Shown: piece by piece, positions 24 through 7,867 of the stretch
Layout of the letters: the number at the start of each line of letters is the position of its first letter
Numbering within the stretch: position 1 is the stretch's first letter
Assembly (NCBI GenBank): GCA_945861315.1
Contig: CAMAUB010000058.1
Location: 1-7,867 of the forward strand
Direction: 5' to 3'
Length of the DNA: 7,867 nt
Origin: Chlamydia trachomatis
GTDB taxonomy: Bacteria > Chlamydiota > Chlamydiia > Chlamydiales > JAAKFR01
The notes under the pieces: model-generated
Databases searched by the model: none
Told to the model about the DNA's origin: nothing
The model's input: the letters and a program-made list of their open reading frames with translations, nothing else
Made by a program: the position numbers and the translations under genes

Positions 24-81
24 GACCTCTTCTTGGTAGCATTCGTGTTGCAAACAAATGCTTTTACACCAAGTTGAGGTC
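24..81 (+). terminator. Long stem-loop followed by six T: plus-strand terminator, or a 5'-leader hairpin on the minus strand
   Basis: GACCTCTTCTTGG (24-36) pairs with CCAAGTTGAGGTC (69-81): 11 of 13 positions match, with two T:T mismatches in the middle. A second stem AGCATT (38-43) / AATGCT (57-62) sits inside the loop. On the plus strand the hairpin is followed at once by TTTTTT (82-87), as in an intrinsic terminator. That suits a plus-strand gene ending at the left edge; in-frame stops occur at 9-11 and 23-25. On the minus strand there is no T-run after the hairpin (AAAATGG follows), so it is a poor terminator for the five-gene operon. There the same structure would hide the AGAGGT site before a possible ATG at 20. 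The base pairing is seen directly; its role is undecided. Confidence 0.5.
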
Positions 82-145: not shown

Positions 146-1552
146 CTAGGCAAAAAACTGCCCGTGAAGGCCTGCAGGTATGAGATGGGGGGCGTGCGCT
201 CTTCCAATCTCTTGAAAGCTATTGCCATCCAAGATGAGAAGGAAGGATTGATGGGATTTTTCATCGATGATAATGCAGAGGACAACTCCATCATCTTCTT
301 TTTGTGAGTTGGGTGCTGCAATGAAGAGGGGTTCACCAGGAATGCACCCTTCTTCTTGCCATGTCACGACTTGTTTTGTTTCTGTGTTGATTTTGTGTAG
401 TGCAGCGTTTTTATTTAGATCACTAAAATCGGCAACGTAACAATATGTGTAGGGGAGTGAGTCGTACGCTTGATTGATTCTGGGAAATTCACACGGCTTT
501 GAAAAAAGAGGTTCTATGGTGAACTCTCCAGATTCAGGAGAGAGAGAGAATCGCTTAATGTAGCCCAAAGCAGTTTCACGGGTCCTTTTACTTGGATCTA
601 TATTCAGGTCTGTAATGATTGTTGCATCTTCGTAGGTCACACAATCCAAATGAATTTTTCCATCTCTCTCGAAGGCATTGGCGTGATGGAAAGCGAAGAA
701 TGGTTTTGTGATATATTTCCCTTTGACGCTCCCATCGTGACGGTTAATCACAATAAATTGTGTTCCTCTCTTCGGTTGCCAGGTAAAGTTTTTGATAAAA
801 CCTTGCCCTTTTGTGATGAGATCAAGAGGTTTGACGACCAAAGGAAACTCTGTAAGGATAATGTAATTTTCAGTGAGAGCAAAGCTGTGCATATAGGCGG
901 GCTCTTTCACCTCTACTTCAGAAATAATGGATCTTGTAGAGGAGCCATCTTGTATGCTGTAGAGCGTGTAATAACTTTTGCGGCCATATTTGATCAGGTA
1001 ATTGAGTGTCTGTTTTTGGTTCACATGATGATGTGGATGAGCCGATTCCCAGCATTTTTCTTTTGGAAGATCATCTTGATAATTTAGAACGCCTAAAGTG
1101 TCTAGCGTTTGTGGATCAAATTTTACCGGAAGTGGAATTTCTGTAAGGGCTACATAGTGATCGGCTAATTTTGCTACATTCACATTTGCATTGTGAAGTG
1201 GCAAAGTGGAGTGGGGAATAAAAAAATTGAAGAAACTCTTAAATAAAGAGCGACAAGGATCAGAGGCAAATCCAATATAGTTAAGTGAGCCTTTTTCAAA
1301 GACTGTTGTGTAAGCATCTGTTCTAAGGAATTTATTTGTATAGTTGACATGACCTTGGTCAAATGAAAAGGCGTGTAACATGGCAAGCCCATCAAACCAG
1401 TGTTCATTGCTCTTTCCATTTATGCTCACAGTTACAGCTCCATTACGCACCATGGTTCCTTTAAGCCAAGAAGGAATTTTTCCTGTAACTTTTAAGGGTA
1501 GGTTTGAGACCTCAGCTTCAAGCTCTGCAGAGATCTCTTTGGGCTTTACCAT
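146..1552 (-). CDS. Carotenoid/retinoid cleavage oxygenase of the RPE65/BCO family
   Basis: A 468-residue protein of the carotenoid oxygenase family (beta-propeller, non-haem Fe(II)), which splits a polyene double bond with O2 to give apocarotenals or retinal. All four iron ligands are visible: H172 (ESAHPHHH), H222 (YMHSFALTENY), H289 (FHHANAFE) and H463 (GLHGQFF). Glutamates matching the second shell are present: E138 (LTEIP), E355 (CEFPRIN), E407 (PGEPLF). The N terminus (IPSWLKGTMVRNG ... HWFDGLAMLHAF) and RTDAY follow the family. FASDPCRSLFKSFFNFF (95-111) resembles the PDPCK palmitoylation/membrane motif of RPE65, BCO1 and BCO2. C-terminal PYTYCY, VTWQEEG and KEDDGVVLCIIID read like animal RPE65. 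No signal peptide is seen. The ATG follows the proS stop by seven bases with a strong GAGGTGA site. Cleavage position and substrate cannot be predicted; no carotenoid-synthesis gene is nearby, so a host-derived substrate is possible (inference). Isomerase activity is unlikely but not excluded. Confidence 0.93.
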   Translation of the reverse strand: MVKPKEISAELEAEVSNLPLKVTGKIPSWLKGTMVRNGAVTVSINGKSNEHWFDGLAMLHAFSFDQGHVNYTNKFLRTDAYTTVFEKGSLNYIGFASDPCRSLFKSFFNFFIPHSTLPLHNANVNVAKLADHYVALTEIPLPVKFDPQTLDTLGVLNYQDDLPKEKCWESAHPHHHVNQKQTLNYLIKYGRKSYYTLYSIQDGSSTRSIISEVEVKEPAYMHSFALTENYIILTEFPLVVKPLDLITKGQGFIKNFTWQPKRGTQFIVINRHDGSVKGKYITKPFFAFHHANAFERDGKIHLDCVTYEDATIITDLNIDPSKRTRETALGYIKRFSLSPESGEFTIEPLFSKPCEFPRINQAYDSLPYTYCYVADFSDLNKNAALHKINTETKQVVTWQEEGCIPGEPLFIAAPNSQKEDDGVVLCIIIDEKSHQSFLLILDGNSFQEIGRAHAPHLIPAGLHGQFFA

Positions 1553-1559
1553 AAATATC

Positions 1560-1566
1560 TCACCTC
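1560..1566 (-). promoter_or_regulatory. Ribosome binding site of the carotenoid oxygenase gene, overlapping the proS stop
   Basis: The minus strand reads GAGGTGA, a near-perfect Shine-Dalgarno, with GAGGTG eight bases before the ATG at 1552. Its last three bases are the TGA stop of proS. A ribosome terminating on proS stands on this site, so the gene can start either by re-initiation or independently. It also supports 1552 as the true start. Confidence 0.85.
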
Positions 1567-3257
1567 AACTGTCTACTAGCCCACGCTTGGATTTGATCTT
1601 TTGAGATCAGCTCTTTTTCCCCTTTGCGTGATTCGATTTCAAACTTCCCTTCGCTGATAAAAGTTTTTCCAACAATCAATTTGAAAGGGATACCAATGAG
1701 ATCGGCATCTTTGAGCTTGAAGCCGAGTCGTTCATCTCGGTCATCTAGTAGGGGTTCATAGGAAGCTAGCTCTGCATAAAGGCGCTCTGCTTCTTGCATG
1801 AGGATGGGATCTTTTGTTGTAACGGGGGTGATGAAGATTTTAAAAGGGGCAAGGCATAGGGGCCAAACAATGCCCCGTTCATCATGCTTCTGTTCAATGC
1901 ACGCTTGAGCTGTGCGTCCAACACCAATGCCATAGGTTCCCATCCAAAATGAGCGCATCTCGCCCAATTCCGTTTGATAAGTCGCCTCGAGTTTGTCACT
2001 ATATTTGGTGCCAAGATTGAAGATGTGGCCAACTTCAATGCCGCGTAGAATTTTGTAGGTGCCTCCTTCAACATGGGGGCAGTGATCGCCTTCCTCTGCG
2101 AGAAGGAAGTCGGAAAATTCTGGAGGGGTGATATCACAACCCCAATTGACATTTTTGTAGTGGATATCAACGACGTTTGCGGCACAAAGGAAGTTTGTCA
2201 TAGGTTTGGCGCTTAAGTCTGCATAGAAAGGGATTTTAAGATCTAGAGGGCCAATAAAACCAAATTTAGAACCAATGATTCTTTGCACTTCATCATCTGT
2301 TGCAAGCATGATATCACTGACACCAAATTTTGCTTCAACTTTGAGCTGGTTGATTTGCCGATCACCTCTAATGCCTATAGCAACAAATTTATCGGGGGAA
2401 AGTCTATAGACAAGTGTCTTAAGGATTTGGTGAGGAGGGAGTTTTGTGAAGTTCGAAAGATCTTCGATTGTGGCAACATTTGGTGTGTCGATTTTCTGTT
2501 TGGGCTCATGCTTTGAGGTGTAGTTGAAGGAGGGGGGAATTGAAATTGTTGCTTCAACATTTGCGGCATACCCCTCACACGCCATGACGACATCTTCGCC
2601 AATATCAGCTGTCACTTGAAATTCTTGGGAGCGCCCAGAGCTACTGATTTTTCCACCATGCGCATCCACTATAACGTAGTTAAGCTCTAGGCGATCAAAA
2701 ATAGCCGTATAAGCTCTTTTCATCCGCTCGTATTGCTCATCCATTCCAGCTGGATCAATAGCGAAGGAGTAGCCATCTTTCATGAGAAACTCTTTAGCAC
2801 GCATTAGGCCAAAGCGGGGACGTATTTCATCACGAAATTTATTTCCAAATTGGTAGATATTTTTTGGAAGCTCTCGGTAGCTTTTGACCCAGTTCTTTAC
2901 AAAGTTTACAGCGACTTCTTCTGCTGTTGGAGCAATGCAAAAGTCGTGATCATCACGATCTTTTAGGGTATAGAGCAGTCCTTCATTGATATAGTCATTC
3001 CAACGCCCTGATTGATGCCAAATTTCAGAAGGGTGCAGCTGTGGTAGGGATACTTCTTGAGCACCTTCTTGATCAAGCTCCTTGCGAATGATCTGCTTCA
3101 ATTTTTTGATCACTCTCCACATCAGTGGTGAATAGACGTAGATTCCACGACCAAGCTTTTGAATATAGCCAGCTCTCTCAAGGAGTTGGTGCGAGGGAAT
3201 ATCGGCATCATGTGGTGCTTCTTTTAGCGTGCGAAATAGGAGAGATGAAAGTCTCAT
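1560..3257 (-). CDS. proS: Proline--tRNA ligase, bacterial type with INS editing domain
   Basis: Class II aminoacyl-tRNA synthetase that attaches proline to tRNA-Pro in the cytoplasm. At 565 residues it matches the E. coli-type (ProS1) length. The order is an N-terminal catalytic part, the proline-pocket TAEE (about 111-114), motif 2 FRDEIRPRFG (141-150) with EFLMKDGYSF, the inserted editing domain (about 230-400), motif 3 GTYGIGVGR (440-448), and the C-terminal anticodon-binding domain (about 468-565; LLDDRDERLGFKLKDADLIG at 503-522). In the editing domain ILKTLVY carries K280, equivalent to the Lys279 of E. coli that is needed to hydrolyse Ala-tRNA-Pro, and GFIGP is the substrate-binding loop; editing is probably active. 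The ATG begins one base after the protease stop and has AAGGA seven bases upstream. In C. trachomatis, as I recall, proS (CT393) is elsewhere, so its place here is a lineage-specific arrangement. Confidence 0.97.
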   Translation of the reverse strand: MRLSSLLFRTLKEAPHDADIPSHQLLERAGYIQKLGRGIYVYSPLMWRVIKKLKQIIRKELDQEGAQEVSLPQLHPSEIWHQSGRWNDYINEGLLYTLKDRDDHDFCIAPTAEEVAVNFVKNWVKSYRELPKNIYQFGNKFRDEIRPRFGLMRAKEFLMKDGYSFAIDPAGMDEQYERMKRAYTAIFDRLELNYVIVDAHGGKISSSGRSQEFQVTADIGEDVVMACEGYAANVEATISIPPSFNYTSKHEPKQKIDTPNVATIEDLSNFTKLPPHQILKTLVYRLSPDKFVAIGIRGDRQINQLKVEAKFGVSDIMLATDDEVQRIIGSKFGFIGPLDLKIPFYADLSAKPMTNFLCAANVVDIHYKNVNWGCDITPPEFSDFLLAEEGDHCPHVEGGTYKILRGIEVGHIFNLGTKYSDKLEATYQTELGEMRSFWMGTYGIGVGRTAQACIEQKHDERGIVWPLCLAPFKIFITPVTTKDPILMQEAERLYAELASYEPLLDDRDERLGFKLKDADLIGIPFKLIVGKTFISEGKFEIESRKGEKELISKDQIQAWASRQLR

Positions 3258-3258
3258 G

Positions 3259-6105
3259 TTACTTTCCTTGGTAATCGATCAGCTTTTTAAGTTTTTCAGC
3301 GGAAGAGGCATTTTGATAGTAAATCCCTCCACCTTGAGAGATATCTCCGTCGACGCAGATAGCTATGCGTTTTTGATTTCCTTTGCCAAGAAATTCATAA
3401 GCAAACTCTAGAAACTCTTCATAAGTGAGTTCTTCAAAGCCACCGATGCGCTTATCAAGCCACTCAAAGTCTCCCTCATATTCAAAGGCGAGTTTGTTGA
3501 GAAGTTTGCCGCGATCTAGTAAAGTATCTGCTGGGTTTTGAAGTCGTTTAATCAAAGCGACTCTAATTGCTTCAAAGCGCTCTTTTGGAATGGTTTCATC
3601 TGCAAGGTGGCTCAAGCTTGACTCTAGAAAAAGTTCAAAGCGAGCGAGTAGATCTCGTGTATTATAGCTAGATGACTGGACGGCCATGAATGAGTAGAGA
3701 TGACGCTCAATCTCCTGTCCCCAGTTGCGAACAAGATAAGCTGTTTGTTGTTTGGTTCGAAGCTCAGAGAAGAAGGGCTCTTCAAGTCCTTTGCATAGGA
3801 TATCCATTGCAGCGCGTTTTTTGTGGGAGAAGGGGCCAAAGTCGATGCTAAGGATGATCGCATTGGCGGGAAGAGAGCATTTTTGTGCAATGAGATGAAC
3901 ACTTGGGAAGCTAGCTACTTCAGCTTTGTAGTGGTCTTGGGCAGGGTAAGTAGCACCATCGAAATGGTCAACCGTTTCAAGCCAAATCTGTTTAGCTTGG
4001 GCTTTTGAGAGGTTGCCATAGAGCGTTGCTTCAACATAGGATTTGTTCCAAATATTTTGGGAAAATTTTTTGAGGTCGTCAAAAGCAACTTTATTGATGG
4101 CTCTCTCTTTTTGACAAACACCAGCATAGTTTTTATAAATAACACCCCACATCAGTTCACTAGCTTGTGCGAGTGGAGAGAGTGAGGCTTTATTCGCATA
4201 AATACGGTGAGCTAAGTCTTTGTAGATCGGAAAGGTCTCCTTTGAAGCAGAGATTGTTTTCATTGTGTGTAGGATCTCTGTTAAAAAGAGGGAGGCTTTG
4301 TCATGAAATCCTTCAAGGCAAAGCTCAATCCCATTAGCAGAAGGCTTAAGGCTATACGAGAGGCCAGCCATTGTTGCTGCATATGCTTTAGGACCGAGCG
4401 TTTCATCAATTGTATGGCAATATAGATCTGCTAAAACTTGGCTCTTTGGATTATTATCTGAGATCAAAGGGGTCTTGAAATTAAAAATCCAGCTCACCTC
4501 CGGCACGCCATATTCATGATCGCTTAAGAGGTAGCACATTCCTTTTTCACTTTTGTCAAGAAGCGTTGGAGTTAACTCATCCTCAGTAGAATGAAGAGTA
4601 AAATTATCTGGAATATAGTCGTTTTTCTTTGGAAGAGAGATCTCTGGATGAGGTGTGCTAATAGCCCACGCTTTAAGTCGTTTCTTCGAGATATCCTTTA
4701 TACCATACTTGACACCGAGCCAAGGCTCGTTTATATCTGCCAAAATTTTTGTCACCTCAGGCTGTGCCATGAGAGTGTATTGACAAAGGTCTGGAGTGAG
4801 ACAAGAGAGCGCTGCATCGATCTTTTCAGAATTATAAGTCGTTGGCATCACTGTTTTGCGTGGAAAGGTTTCAAGCGGTTCATCGACCATTGTCGTTGCA
4901 TACTCAGAAACAAGCTCGAAGATGTCTTGACGTGATTGGTACGTATAGTGAAGTGTGTCAAGTTTTTGTACTTCATCAAAGATATAGCGGGGAATACCGG
5001 ATAAGCGCAAGCTGGCAATGGCTTCGTAGCAACGAGCAATCACTTTTTCATACTCCTTTAACCCTTTGCTCGTCAGCTGAATATTGAGGGAGAAAAGCGA
5101 CTGATCTTTCCCAGCATGGAAGCCTCCAGCAGAGAGGGAACTCGCCAAACCCTCTTCCTTGAGTCTTGTTAAAAGAGAGGTGTCACCTTCATGGCCCAAA
5201 ATATGACCGATTAATTTGTCTGCTTTGACGTCATAGTCTTGGCTCGGGATTTCCCAGGTCATCTCGAGTTGTTGTACATCTTGAACGGGGGCAATAGCGA
5301 CTAGTTTACCCATCATTTCACAATTGAGCAAAGAAGTTTCCAACTTTTGAGGGATAACATCTGAATTAGTCACAGCGGAAAAGAGCGCAGTAGCTTGATT
5401 TTGAAGTGTGTCAAGGTCAGCAGAAGCATAGATCACAAGATGCATAAGATTTGCACTATAATGGTTTTTATACCAGTTTTTGAGCTCATCTTGAGAGATT
5501 TTAGCAAGTGTATCGAGGTTTCCAATGCAAAAGTTATGAAAGGGGTGCTTTGGATTGGCAAGCTCTTTCTTAACATAGAGCATGCGCCATGAATCAAGTG
5601 GGATATTTCGGCAATACTCTTGGTGAATAGCGTGGCATTCACGCCCAACACCTGATGGATTGAAGAGAGGAGCTATGAAAAATTGACTAAATCTATCAAG
5701 CGCTTGCTCAAGTCCATTATTATTAACAGAGAACATATAGACAGTGCGATCAGCCATAGTAAAGGCATTACGTTTGCCTCCATGCTCATCTAGATAGCGA
5801 GTGTATCCCTCTTCTTCAGGAAATTTTTCAGTTCCTAAAAAGAGCATATGCTCAACAAAATGTGCCATACCTGGGCGGTCTTTTGGATCGTCCCAACTTC
5901 CAACGTTAACCGCAAGTGCAGCTCCTGATTGAGGTGTATTTGGGTCAGAGATTAAGAGCACTTCTAGACCGTTGTCAAGGCGCAGTTTTCGCATCCCTCT
6001 CTCTTTCAAGGAAGGCGTTGCAACAGTAAGACATGATTGATCCTCAATGATTTGTCCTAGAATAGCAAAGGTAAATAAAAATGTGAGCAAAAGATATTTC
6101 ATCAT
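3259..6105 (-). CDS. ptr: M16 zinc metallopeptidase, full-length pitrilysin/insulin-degrading-enzyme type, exported
   Basis: A 948-residue peptidase of the pitrilysin (protease III)/IDE family, which degrades peptides inside a closed two-half chamber. Residues 1-18 form a hydrophobic signal peptide, so the mature protein is probably periplasmic. The inverted zinc motif HFVEH is at 82-86 (H82, H86 ligands; E85 base). RECHAIHQE supplies E156 and the third ligand E163, exactly 76 residues after H86, the family's spacing. DSWR and NPKHPF follow as in IDE. The N-terminal half continues through GHEGDTSLLTRLKEEG (about 304-319). The inactive C-terminal half keeps ELRTKQQTAYLV with R783 and Y790, matching the substrate-binding Arg/Tyr pair of IDE. 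Both halves are intact. The start shares ATGA with the plsB stop; a second ATG follows directly, so the exact first residue is uncertain. No Shine-Dalgarno is visible upstream. Position beside plsB matches ptr (CT806) of C. trachomatis. Confidence 0.94.
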   Translation of the reverse strand: MMKYLLLTFLFTFAILGQIIEDQSCLTVATPSLKERGMRKLRLDNGLEVLLISDPNTPQSGAALAVNVGSWDDPKDRPGMAHFVEHMLFLGTEKFPEEEGYTRYLDEHGGKRNAFTMADRTVYMFSVNNNGLEQALDRFSQFFIAPLFNPSGVGRECHAIHQEYCRNIPLDSWRMLYVKKELANPKHPFHNFCIGNLDTLAKISQDELKNWYKNHYSANLMHLVIYASADLDTLQNQATALFSAVTNSDVIPQKLETSLLNCEMMGKLVAIAPVQDVQQLEMTWEIPSQDYDVKADKLIGHILGHEGDTSLLTRLKEEGLASSLSAGGFHAGKDQSLFSLNIQLTSKGLKEYEKVIARCYEAIASLRLSGIPRYIFDEVQKLDTLHYTYQSRQDIFELVSEYATTMVDEPLETFPRKTVMPTTYNSEKIDAALSCLTPDLCQYTLMAQPEVTKILADINEPWLGVKYGIKDISKKRLKAWAISTPHPEISLPKKNDYIPDNFTLHSTEDELTPTLLDKSEKGMCYLLSDHEYGVPEVSWIFNFKTPLISDNNPKSQVLADLYCHTIDETLGPKAYAATMAGLSYSLKPSANGIELCLEGFHDKASLFLTEILHTMKTISASKETFPIYKDLAHRIYANKASLSPLAQASELMWGVIYKNYAGVCQKERAINKVAFDDLKKFSQNIWNKSYVEATLYGNLSKAQAKQIWLETVDHFDGATYPAQDHYKAEVASFPSVHLIAQKCSLPANAIILSIDFGPFSHKKRAAMDILCKGLEEPFFSELRTKQQTAYLVRNWGQEIERHLYSFMAVQSSSYNTRDLLARFELFLESSLSHLADETIPKERFEAIRVALIKRLQNPADTLLDRGKLLNKLAFEYEGDFEWLDKRIGGFEELTYEEFLEFAYEFLGKGNQKRIAICVDGDISQGGGIYYQNASSAEKLKKLIDYQGK
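3265..3269 (-). promoter_or_regulatory. Ribosome binding site of proS, inside the end of the M16 protease gene
   Basis: The minus strand reads AAGGA, seven bases before the proS ATG at 3257. The site is formed by the last codons of the protease gene, whose TAA lies between it and the proS start. It supports the chosen proS start and implies translational coupling to the protease gene. Confidence 0.75.
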
Positions 6106-7094
6106 GGTAATTCTGTGTATAGGGTTTTTACAAGATTGAAAACATACATTGATAAAGCTGCCCGCCTAGCGTGACGATCTTTCAGAGTATCTCCCGGAAA
6201 ATGTTCTGTGTCAATCTCATCCCCAAAGGAAAAATGAATTGGCACTCGACTAGTCAAGCGAGCCTCTCCAAGATCAGACATAACTGTGTTAGGTGGAGGA
6301 AGAATATCGTAGGTTTTAAGAGCTAATGGGTAAAAGTGAGTGATACTGCGTGCTTGTTTGGCCATCAAGCGAAACATTTCAACACTCTGAGGATCAAAGG
6401 GAGAGAGGGTTATTACTCCCTTATCATTGCGACGATCCCGCCCTCCTGAGGGTGCAACATAAATGGCTTTGCCTCCCTCTGCAAGCAGTTGCTTCATCCG
6501 CTTCATGGTCTTCTGATTGTAAATCAACTTCTCTTCTTTCTTCTCTGGAGGATTATTGATATGTCTTTTTGAGTAGATACAAAGCAGGTTGCAACCTAAA
6601 CTAACCGGAACTGCAATTGGATCGGTGATCACTCGATCTCCTGCGACAAAGATCATATTGGAACCGAGGTCTGCAAATTTTTTCTCTAAAATAAGATAGA
6701 TTATTTTAGGATCAACTTCTGTCTGGTGGTTTGCAAAGAGAATAACATTTTCTTTCGCGTTCAGTTGACGAGACATTTTCTCAACATTTTCAGGATGCCG
6801 AAGTGTTGAATTTTCTTCGTCAACCATTGGCCGAAATAGCTCAAATCCAAATTCATCATAGTTAAAAGGTGTTGTGATCTTCTTGTGAAAAGGTTCAAAT
6901 TGATAGGGGGTAGCAATCTGCTTTTTTACCAATTTAAGATATGTATCAAAAACCAAGACATGTTTAGAATAGTCTACTTTTGCACGCGTCAAAGCGGTGA
7001 CATACGATTGGTGCAAATTATAGAAAATCTCATAAATGCTATCTGAGATATTACCTACATCACGGTCATGTTTAAGTTGCGACAAAAAGTCCAT
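6102..7094 (-). CDS. plsB: Glycerol-3-phosphate acyltransferase, plastid/chlamydial soluble type
   Basis: Predicted to acylate sn-glycerol-3-phosphate at position 1, the first step of phospholipid synthesis. It is about 330 residues, the size of the soluble chloroplast enzyme (ATS1) and far shorter than the ~800-residue E. coli PlsB. Block I is NHQTEVDP with the catalytic H(X)4D pair at about H123/D128. IFVAGDR (about 148-154), CIYSKRH (about 172-178) and APSGGRDR (about 214-221) follow, all nearly identical to the plant plastid enzyme as I remember it. The N-terminal ~75 residues look helical, as in the squash structure. I chose ATG at 7094 over the TTG one codon upstream because it forms a TGATG junction with the preceding stop. 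No Shine-Dalgarno precedes it, so translation probably depends on ribosomes finishing the RNase gene. The stop overlaps the next gene by four bases (ATGA). Family assignment is very secure; acyl donor specificity cannot be read from the sequence. Confidence 0.95.
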   Translation of the reverse strand: MDFLSQLKHDRDVGNISDSIYEIFYNLHQSYVTALTRAKVDYSKHVLVFDTYLKLVKKQIATPYQFEPFHKKITTPFNYDEFGFELFRPMVDEENSTLRHPENVEKMSRQLNAKENVILFANHQTEVDPKIIYLILEKKFADLGSNMIFVAGDRVITDPIAVPVSLGCNLLCIYSKRHINNPPEKKEEKLIYNQKTMKRMKQLLAEGGKAIYVAPSGGRDRRNDKGVITLSPFDPQSVEMFRLMAKQARSITHFYPLALKTYDILPPPNTVMSDLGEARLTSRVPIHFSFGDEIDTEHFPGDTLKDRHARRAALSMYVFNLVKTLYTELP

Positions 7095-7867
7095 CAAAAT
7101 TCAATCAATTGGTTAGTTATGGATGAGTAAAAAAGGAAGTCATTTAAATGAAGCAGGTCGGAAATTTCAAAATCTAACGTTGCTTTATGTTTCTTTGTTA
7201 TCTCTACAAGAGCCTCTTTTTCACCATTAGCGGTCATATATTGGTTGAGCTGAGGATGAGTTACAAGTCTCAATCCATACTGTTCTATCAGGTGGGTGAT
7301 TTTTACAATGGCTCTTTCAATCTCAATGAGGACACTCTCATGAGTTTTGATCAATGCAGTTCCATTGCAATAAGGGCAGCTTGTGAACATCGTTTGTGCA
7401 AGAGACTCGCGGTTGCGTTGCCGAGTCATTTCAACAAGACCAAATTCACTCATATTTAAGATCGTTCCTTTTGCAGGATCGTCTTTCATGCACTCTTTAA
7501 GCCGCTCTAACACTTTGCGTTGATTTTTGCGTGACCACATGTCAATAAAGTCAATGATGATAAGGCCTCCCACATTTCTAAGGCGCATTTGACGCGCAAC
7601 CTCTTGAGCAGCCTCTAAGTTAATGTGTAGCAAAGTTTGCTCTACATCTCCTTCTGCATTGGTGCTTCGTCCTGAGTTGACATCGACTGTATGCATCGCT
7701 TCAGTACGATCAAAGAAGAGATAGCCACCGCTTGGCAGCCAAACTTTGCGACGCATAGCCTTTTCAATCTCTCTCTCGACATTAAATCTCTCAAACATAG
7801 GCGTTTTATCGCGGTAATACTCAAGTCTCAAAGGATGTTCATGTTCAAGTTTCTTATAGAACTGCTT
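7094..7867 (-). CDS. rng: Ribonuclease E/G family protein (CafE/RNase G type), 5' end cut off by the window edge
   Basis: This is the C-terminal 257 residues of an RNase E/G endoribonuclease, which cuts single-stranded RNA in rRNA maturation and mRNA turnover. The frame stays open to the last base, so the N-terminal S1 RNA-binding domain lies outside. A possible TTG at 7831 is internal, because in-frame coding continues upstream of it. The catalytic core is clear: TVDVNSGR (first metal-binding Asp, about residue 62 of the visible part), NLEAAQEVARQMRLRNVGG, then IDFIDM (second catalytic Asp, about 106), matching D303 and D346 of E. coli RNase E. A CPYC pair (about 164-167) is the zinc-link that joins subunits. 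The protein ends about 90 residues after the zinc-link with no RNase E-like degradosome scaffold, so RNase G/CafE is the better name. Its TGA stop overlaps the plsB ATG by one base. In C. trachomatis the same gene (cafE) neighbours plsB. Confidence 0.93.
   Translation of the reverse strand, partial: KQFYKKLEHEHPLRLEYYRDKTPMFERFNVEREIEKAMRRKVWLPSGGYLFFDRTEAMHTVDVNSGRSTNAEGDVEQTLLHINLEAAQEVARQMRLRNVGGLIIIDFIDMWSRKNQRKVLERLKECMKDDPAKGTILNMSEFGLVEMTRQRNRESLAQTMFTSCPYCNGTALIKTHESVLIEIERAIVKITHLIEQYGLRLVTHPQLNQYMTANGEKEALVEITKKHKATLDFEISDLLHLNDFLFYSSITNQLIEF

Follow-up and report, generated by a model that had tools for sequence, protein, structure and literature searches.

The minus-strand gene at positions 146..1552 of the window (the whole 7867-base contig analyzed here) encodes a carotenoid cleavage dioxygenase (CCD) of the RPE65/BCO/CCD superfamily, and we propose, at a probability of roughly 60%, that it is an active enzyme whose substrate would be a host-derived (apo)carotenoid. 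We favor this reading because the family match is full length, the metal ligands are intact, the predicted fold resembles that of the archaeal enzyme NdCCD, the contig is chlamydial, and phytoene/squalene synthase genes (family SQS_PSY) are nearly absent from the related CCD-bearing genomes sampled. The specificity of the enzyme is not readable from its sequence, and the window protein itself is an ordinary family member. What is new is the orphan, inter-phylum and partly envelope-targeted occurrence of CCDs in obligate endosymbionts; in the literature searched, with most subscription papers outside its reach, we found neither a paper on a chlamydial CCD nor a description of such a distribution.

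Superfamily membership extends across the whole 468-residue protein, which was identified as an open reading frame with an ATG start. The Pfam RPE65 profile (PF03055) matches at 396.6 bits (cut-off 27; E 2.5e-118) over profile positions 7-468 of 469, in agreement with the RPE65/BCO-like assignment of an earlier, sequence-only reading of this DNA. By alignment to solved enzymes, His172, His222, His289 and His463 are the predicted Fe ligands, and Glu138, Glu355 and Glu407 form the second shell. That reading had also held these residues to be intact, which they are: the four histidines, Glu138 and Glu407 are invariant in 105/105 rows of our alignment A2, although the His172 column is partly preselected, since the loci came from a motif scan with His172 inside the motifs. 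At position 355, 101 rows have Glu and 4 have Asp, with Glu in 51/51 chlamydial-group rows and in 50/54 others. All seven residues are kept in 51/51 chlamydial-group rows, namely the window protein, 33 other proteins (P proteins) from the best 120 homologues, and 17 chlamydial loci, where the group label of most P proteins rests on similarity and a few duplicate a locus (P0087 is L004). Copies missed by the motif scan and found by profile alone (G055, G075, G092 and G119, as well as G076, which is P0022 in A2) likewise retain all seven. Among the chlamydial rows examined that are complete and unbroken, none has lost a ligand, an argument that catalysis is of importance to the chlamydiae. As judged from these sequence features, the window protein is probably a bona fide and active CCD.

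The sequence-only reading had called for a structure prediction and a comparison with RPE65 and ACO, and the outcome is the family fold. An alignment-based AlphaFold model of the window CCD (pLDDT 91.3), which replaced an earlier model built from 18 rows with a poor second blade, forms a seven-bladed propeller. Its nearest solved structure is NdCCD from Candidatus Nitrosotalea devanaterra (PDB 6vcf/6vcg/6vch; TM 0.91 and 1.8 Å to 6vcg_D), with NinaB, ACO and RPE65 next. NdCCD shares the fold, the ligands, an occluding Val and the DPCRS motif with the window protein at 44% identity, and its genome is likewise without SQS_PSY; it differs in being archaeal, in forming a separate clade, and in lacking the aromatic-Glu-Ser stretch ahead of the first His ligand. 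Synechocystis ACO (apocarotenoid-15,15'-oxygenase) is similar in fold (TM about 0.8) and ligands but more distant by score than NdCCD. The exact cut site that we take NdCCD to have agrees with the ligand named in the title of PDB entry 6vch. The model NF052295 (8'-apo-carotenoid 13,14-cleaving dioxygenase) scores 154.5 bits against the window protein, below its equivalog cut-off of 675. The occluding residue, Val124, aligns with NdCCD Val126 and is Val or Ile in 51/51 chlamydial-group rows. In the accessible portion of PMC12051055, the residue at this second-sphere site covers one iron coordination position, and NdCCD is an apocarotenoid cleaver.

In the mechanism that we envisage, the window CCD would cleave a single double bond in a carotenoid or apocarotenoid with the help of Fe(II) and O2. 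The four-His Fe(II) site would sit centrally in the propeller, with a hydrophobic tunnel holding the long polyene, and Val124 would keep one coordination site covered, leaving the iron five-coordinate; once substrate is bound, O2 would replace water and two carbonyl products would form. The reaction could produce a signal for the host, remove a host signal, supply retinal to a rhodopsin in rare cases, or salvage carbon.

The alternative that survives best, although improbable, is that the enzyme cleaves a stilbene, an isoeugenol-like phenolic or a lignin fragment. The superfamily includes stilbene and phenolic cleavers, the NCBIfam lignostilbene model matches the window protein at 112 bits, and PadR-type regulators, which are often phenolic-responsive, lie upstream of the CCD in three relatives from a branch other than the lipoprotein clade described below (assigned by Pfam, run on one member per neighbor family, in L016, and by homology in L019 and L098). 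The 112 bits are, however, far under the equivalog cut-off of 800; the nearest solved enzymes cleave carotenoids; and the window protein has Val124 where, in the accessible portion of PMC12051055, Thr is invariable among stilbenoid cleavers.

The case for a host-derived (apo)carotenoid draws on what the carrier genomes can make. Among CCD-bearing genomes of Chlamydiota and Dependentiae (TM6), 1/40 contains SQS_PSY (the sole carrier is G017), as compared with 42/52 of those from other groups (Fisher p about 2e-15, kinship uncorrected; most surveyed genomes are drafts of untold completeness). The 40 genomes consist of 25 chlamydial ones (19 from a survey of the phylum plus G003, G005, G012, G013, G014 and G016) and 15 from Dependentiae; G012 and G014 are titled Verrucomicrobia, yet their CCDs fall within the chlamydial clade and they were counted as chlamydial. 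The 52 were taken from the 62 CCD-bearing genomes of other groups in the motif scan. SQS_PSY also covers squalene and hopanoid enzymes, and 42/52 is therefore an upper bound for carotenoid makers. In the whole sets, SQS_PSY occurs in 0/101 Dependentiae and 4/151 Chlamydiota. Dependentiae lead a host-dependent life, and the known amoeba hosts are, to our knowledge, not established carotenoid makers, a point against the host as source. Chlamydiota are obligate endosymbionts according to the accessible portion of PMC9816063.

Because SQS_PSY is so rare in these host-dependent phyla relative to other groups, import of the substrate is likely. Apparently unable to make the polyene, the cells would take it up from host membranes or from ingested algae and bacteria. 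An orphan CCD is nevertheless no proof of a host substrate, since SQS_PSY is also missing from four archaeal genomes with a CCD, that of the Nitrosotalea from which NdCCD comes among them. Whereas CCDs are usually discussed beside a substrate-making pathway, here the catalytic residues are kept in the examined chlamydial-group copies while SQS_PSY is missing from 39/40 CCD-bearing genomes of the two phyla. The search for carotenoid-synthesis genes that the sequence-only reading had asked for was run on the relatives, and its suggestion that the enzyme acts on host carotenoids or retinoids receives indirect backing for carotenoids (39/40 relatives without SQS_PSY versus 10/52 others).

A second use of the enzyme, also raised by that reading, would be to provide a rhodopsin in its own cell with retinal. 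This we consider quite unlikely, and we rate conversion of a host apocarotenoid above it. Type-1 rhodopsins were found in 2/151 Chlamydiota (G017 and G158), and above cut-off in 2/101 Dependentiae (G191 and G257, with G179 below cut-off); the six extra chlamydial genomes had none. Thus 38/40 CCD-bearing genomes are without one, the exceptions being G017 and G257, while G158 and G191 have a rhodopsin without a CCD; heliorhodopsin was found in 0/40, with the controls equally silent. The retinal proposal was consequently left mostly unsupported. It is best served by the Dependentiae genome G257 (L131, L134), which encodes both a rhodopsin with the retinal lysine (assigned by eye) and a ligand-complete CCD on one 1.22-Mb contig and has no SQS_PSY; it is the one case in which a rhodopsin might be supplied by the CCD with no carotenoid pathway present. 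The lysine is also present in the G191 rhodopsin (L132).

In G017 (Chlamydiales bacterium 38-26), genes for a LysR regulator, rhodopsin, a CrtI-like protein, CrtB, lycopene cyclase and Blh lie side by side (L116:6745-13034), and G158 combines rhodopsin with CrtB (L101, L104). The Blh/BCD beta-carotene dioxygenases (PF15461) catalyze the same class of reaction in retinal synthesis and are membrane proteins unrelated to CCDs. The G017 CCD lies on a different contig from the cluster, and as judged by this gene content Blh, not the CCD, would make retinal in G017. The accessible portions of PMC9270025 and PMC9418006 describe giant-virus carotenoid oxygenases and the rhodopsins of Candidatus Comchoano, both protist-infecting and each with one end of the retinal pathway; as far as those portions go, Candidatus Comchoano, with a rhodopsin but no retinal synthesis, is the converse of the chlamydial CCD case.

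To map the distribution of the family, we relied on an alignment-based scan, as a genome scan with the single window protein found nothing; the motif scan covered one genome per species (84,980 species) and 80 loci were kept of 209 relatives. Profile searches detected PF03055 in 19/151 Chlamydiota genomes (sampled from the phylum to which G001, Parachlamydiaceae bacterium HS-T3, belongs) and in 15/101 Dependentiae genomes (from the phylum of the TM6 genome G008). Among the chlamydial carriers, one copy is a broken fragment (G071), one is split (G117), one is cut by the contig end (G140), and one contains a stop and is divergent in sequence (G124); two Dependentiae copies are cut or partial (G172 and G237). 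Several Dependentiae CCDs (G257, G208 and G205) reside on contigs of nearly genome size, and binning error therefore cannot explain the Dependentiae hits as a whole. In four Dependentiae copies, Asn replaces the third His ligand (G205, G206, G207 and G208; L140, L146, L142 and L139, respectively), and the G202 copy (L141) has lost three ligands; these ligand-deficient proteins are possibly pseudo-enzymes or have a changed site. Viral carriage found no backing, as a scan of viral contigs gave one weak match of 78 residues.

The CCD gene was probably exchanged between Chlamydiota and Dependentiae, in either direction, as suggested by a shared clade and a shared sequence mark. In our careful tree of 55 rows, the chlamydial rows used and three Dependentiae copies form one clade (bootstrap 100, SH-aLRT 97), in which TM6 L008 is nested beside chlamydial L004 (99/87) and L137 plus L141 form the sister group. 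Two quick trees agree on the chlamydial clade with lower support at its edge, and place the Dependentiae row L147 differently. AU tests, on groups named after the tree was seen, reject two arrangements, a chlamydial clade that leaves out L008 (p 0.025) and a single Dependentiae clade that includes it (p 0.0007), but do not reject a single Dependentiae clade without it (p 0.11). The sequence mark lies ahead of the first His ligand (Cys167-Trp168-Glu169 in the window): chlamydial-group rows have an aromatic residue in 51/51 and Glu in 47/51, where one scan motif included this stretch and partly preselected the loci, though not the P proteins. L008, L137 and L141 also carry the aromatic residue and Glu, other A2 rows mostly have Thr or Ser at the Glu position, and the outlying chlamydial copies L096 and L097 are without it.

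Many of these CCDs appear to be directed to the cell envelope. When the open frames of the loci were scored with one hydrophobicity rule, 12/22 chlamydial and 12/13 Dependentiae CCDs had an N-terminal hydrophobic segment, so that 24/35 have a predicted export or lipoprotein signal versus 0/62 elsewhere, where only 7/62 loci have a GC content below 45%. A similar rule gave a segment in at least 51 of 118 scorable proteins among the best 120 homologues, a lower bound, since gene callers sometimes picked a later Met. Neighboring open reading frames without later membrane spans, scored by a close but not identical rule, served as baseline (18/95 in Chlamydiota and 31/59 in Dependentiae); against it, the CCDs show a clear excess in Chlamydiota (p 0.002) and a modest one in Dependentiae (p 0.01). 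Each of the seven loci in one chlamydial clade (L009, L012, L013, L014, L015, L018 and L088; support 100 in a quick tree) has a lipobox-like Cys, four being called by script and three by eye, with L013 and L015 just below the hydrophobicity threshold. Dependentiae L008 also has such a Cys. The segment is below threshold in L002 and L097, and absent from the window copy and from L005, L006, L007, L022, L085 and L095. An in-frame TGA lies directly upstream of the window ATG, so that an N-terminal signal would not fit.

The enzyme of many relatives is thus predicted to reside in the envelope, as a lipoprotein or through an N-terminal anchor, while the window copy would be cytosolic or work at the inner membrane. 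These data prompt a broader and more tentative picture, which we hold to be possible but doubtful: that the two endosymbiont phyla share and exchange a CCD for which they make no substrate, many copies of which would be placed in the envelope facing the host and would strip or edit carotenoids and retinoids of host or food. The near absence of SQS_PSY alongside kept catalytic residues leads us to expect that carotenoids or retinoids pass from the protist to its endosymbiont and that many copies of the enzyme are located in the envelope.

Gene neighborhoods differ between branches. In the lipoprotein clade, the CCD of L013 starts 0 to 6 bases past the stop of an Abhydrolase_3 esterase, depending on start choice, L015 has the same layout, and in L018 the CCD precedes a P450 and an esterase; on sequence grounds, these esterases would fit release of an esterified carotenoid or retinoid. 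We considered a retinoic-acid P450 of the CYP120/CYP26 type in L018 and discarded it, as CYP3A, CYPX and others match ahead of CYP120. In the branch of the window, the one recurrent neighbor is a VTT-domain protein, encoded directly behind the CCD in L005 and, in L006, about 1.2 kb ahead of it; the other neighbors differ, and the idea of a conserved neighborhood in this branch was dropped. The small chlamydial MAG G005 holds two CCDs, one from the branch of the window (L005) and one from the lipoprotein clade (L018).

The esterases bear on a further alternative, that the enzyme works on host retinoids, either as a retinyl-ester isomerohydrolase like RPE65 or as an isomerooxygenase like NinaB, which we judge about as improbable as retinal supply. 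NinaB, ACO and RPE65 follow NdCCD among the solved folds, Thr137 aligns with RPE65 Thr147, and the esterase neighbors occur in another chlamydial clade. The metazoan enzymes BCO1, BCO2, RPE65 and NinaB have the four His and three Glu in common with the window CCD, but are 26-29% identical to it (29% for RPE65, as against 44% for NdCCD). In three trees the window protein lies within the chlamydial clade and metazoan rows never do; in a quick tree the animals join Chloroflexota and Balneolota rows with weak support (79), and the prokaryotic rows nearest to them (L037, L049 and L061) were dropped from the later two trees. RPE65 Phe103 has no clear chlamydial counterpart, as its column differs between two alignments. 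The DPC[RK] stretch (DPCR at window residues 98-101) has Cys in 93/105 A2 rows and in 4/4 metazoan rows, where the motif is PDPCK; this close match to the animal motif is common among bacterial and archaeal relatives. The Cys of the animal motif has been studied for palmitoylation, according to the accessible portion of PMC7221588.

In the window, the CCD is the final gene of five tightly packed minus-strand genes: RNase E/G (7094..7867, truncated by the contig end), a PlsC-type acyltransferase (6102..7097, TTG start as called), an M16 (pitrilysin-like) peptidase with an N-terminal hydrophobic segment (3259..6105), all three identified by open reading frame and Pfam; proS, encoding a class II prolyl-tRNA synthetase of the chlamydial type with an editing domain (1560..3257, by Pfam and homologues); and the CCD. 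The stretch 1553..1572 on the same strand comprises the 7 intergenic bases from the proS stop to the CCD start and the proS 3' end, with a Shine-Dalgarno-like GAGGTGA that overlaps the proS stop 7 bases ahead of the CCD ATG. The homologues of the window proS that carry an organism name (among the best 120 of 7999) are all chlamydial except one Victivallaceae, and the contig is therefore chlamydial, as had been supposed. The CCD has a GC content of 0.413 versus 0.40-0.44 in its neighbors, with GC3 also alike, and base composition gave no sign of recent foreign acquisition.

The sequence-only reading had placed the CCD last in a housekeeping operon, which holds on this contig but was not seen elsewhere. 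proS adjoins the CCD in 0 chlamydial CCD loci, a weak test, since G005 and G006 alone of 20 chlamydial genomes have a close proS match and could report on placement. In both, the CCD lies on a different contig from proS, and the stretch around proS matches none of the other four window proteins; a conserved chlamydial proS-CCD operon was accordingly abandoned as a candidate. The unshared proS adjacency, the missing N-terminal segment, the broken or split copies in a few chlamydial genomes (G071, G117 and G124) and the ligand-deficient copies of some Dependentiae could point to a drifting or non-catalytic relic behind proS, but this is the least probable alternative, as the window copy has its full length and all ligands, the chlamydial-group A2 rows keep theirs, and its GC and GC3 match those of its neighbors.

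Past the CCD stop, toward the contig end, lies a strong hairpin (24..81, unstranded; -26 kcal/mol; folding z -5.8 and -4.8), followed by T6 on the plus strand. The hairpin is without an Rfam match and is likely the terminator of a convergent gene off the contig.

Some further features of synthetase genes and CCD neighborhoods were recorded. The window-type class II proS with editing domain, which has its close matches in G005 and G006, finds only weak class II synthetase matches in the remaining 18/20 chlamydial genomes. In TM6 L008 (4082-7143) and Nitrosotalea L017 (8537-11371), the CCD divergently adjoins a class II tRNA synthetase of the D/K/N type, an adjacency that may reflect chance or shared origin. 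In Dependentiae L137 (5537-8470) and L141 (6711-9705), the CCD lies, nearly overlapping, between two open reading frames for HAD-like hydrolases that are homologous to each other, and the three genes form a conserved unit.
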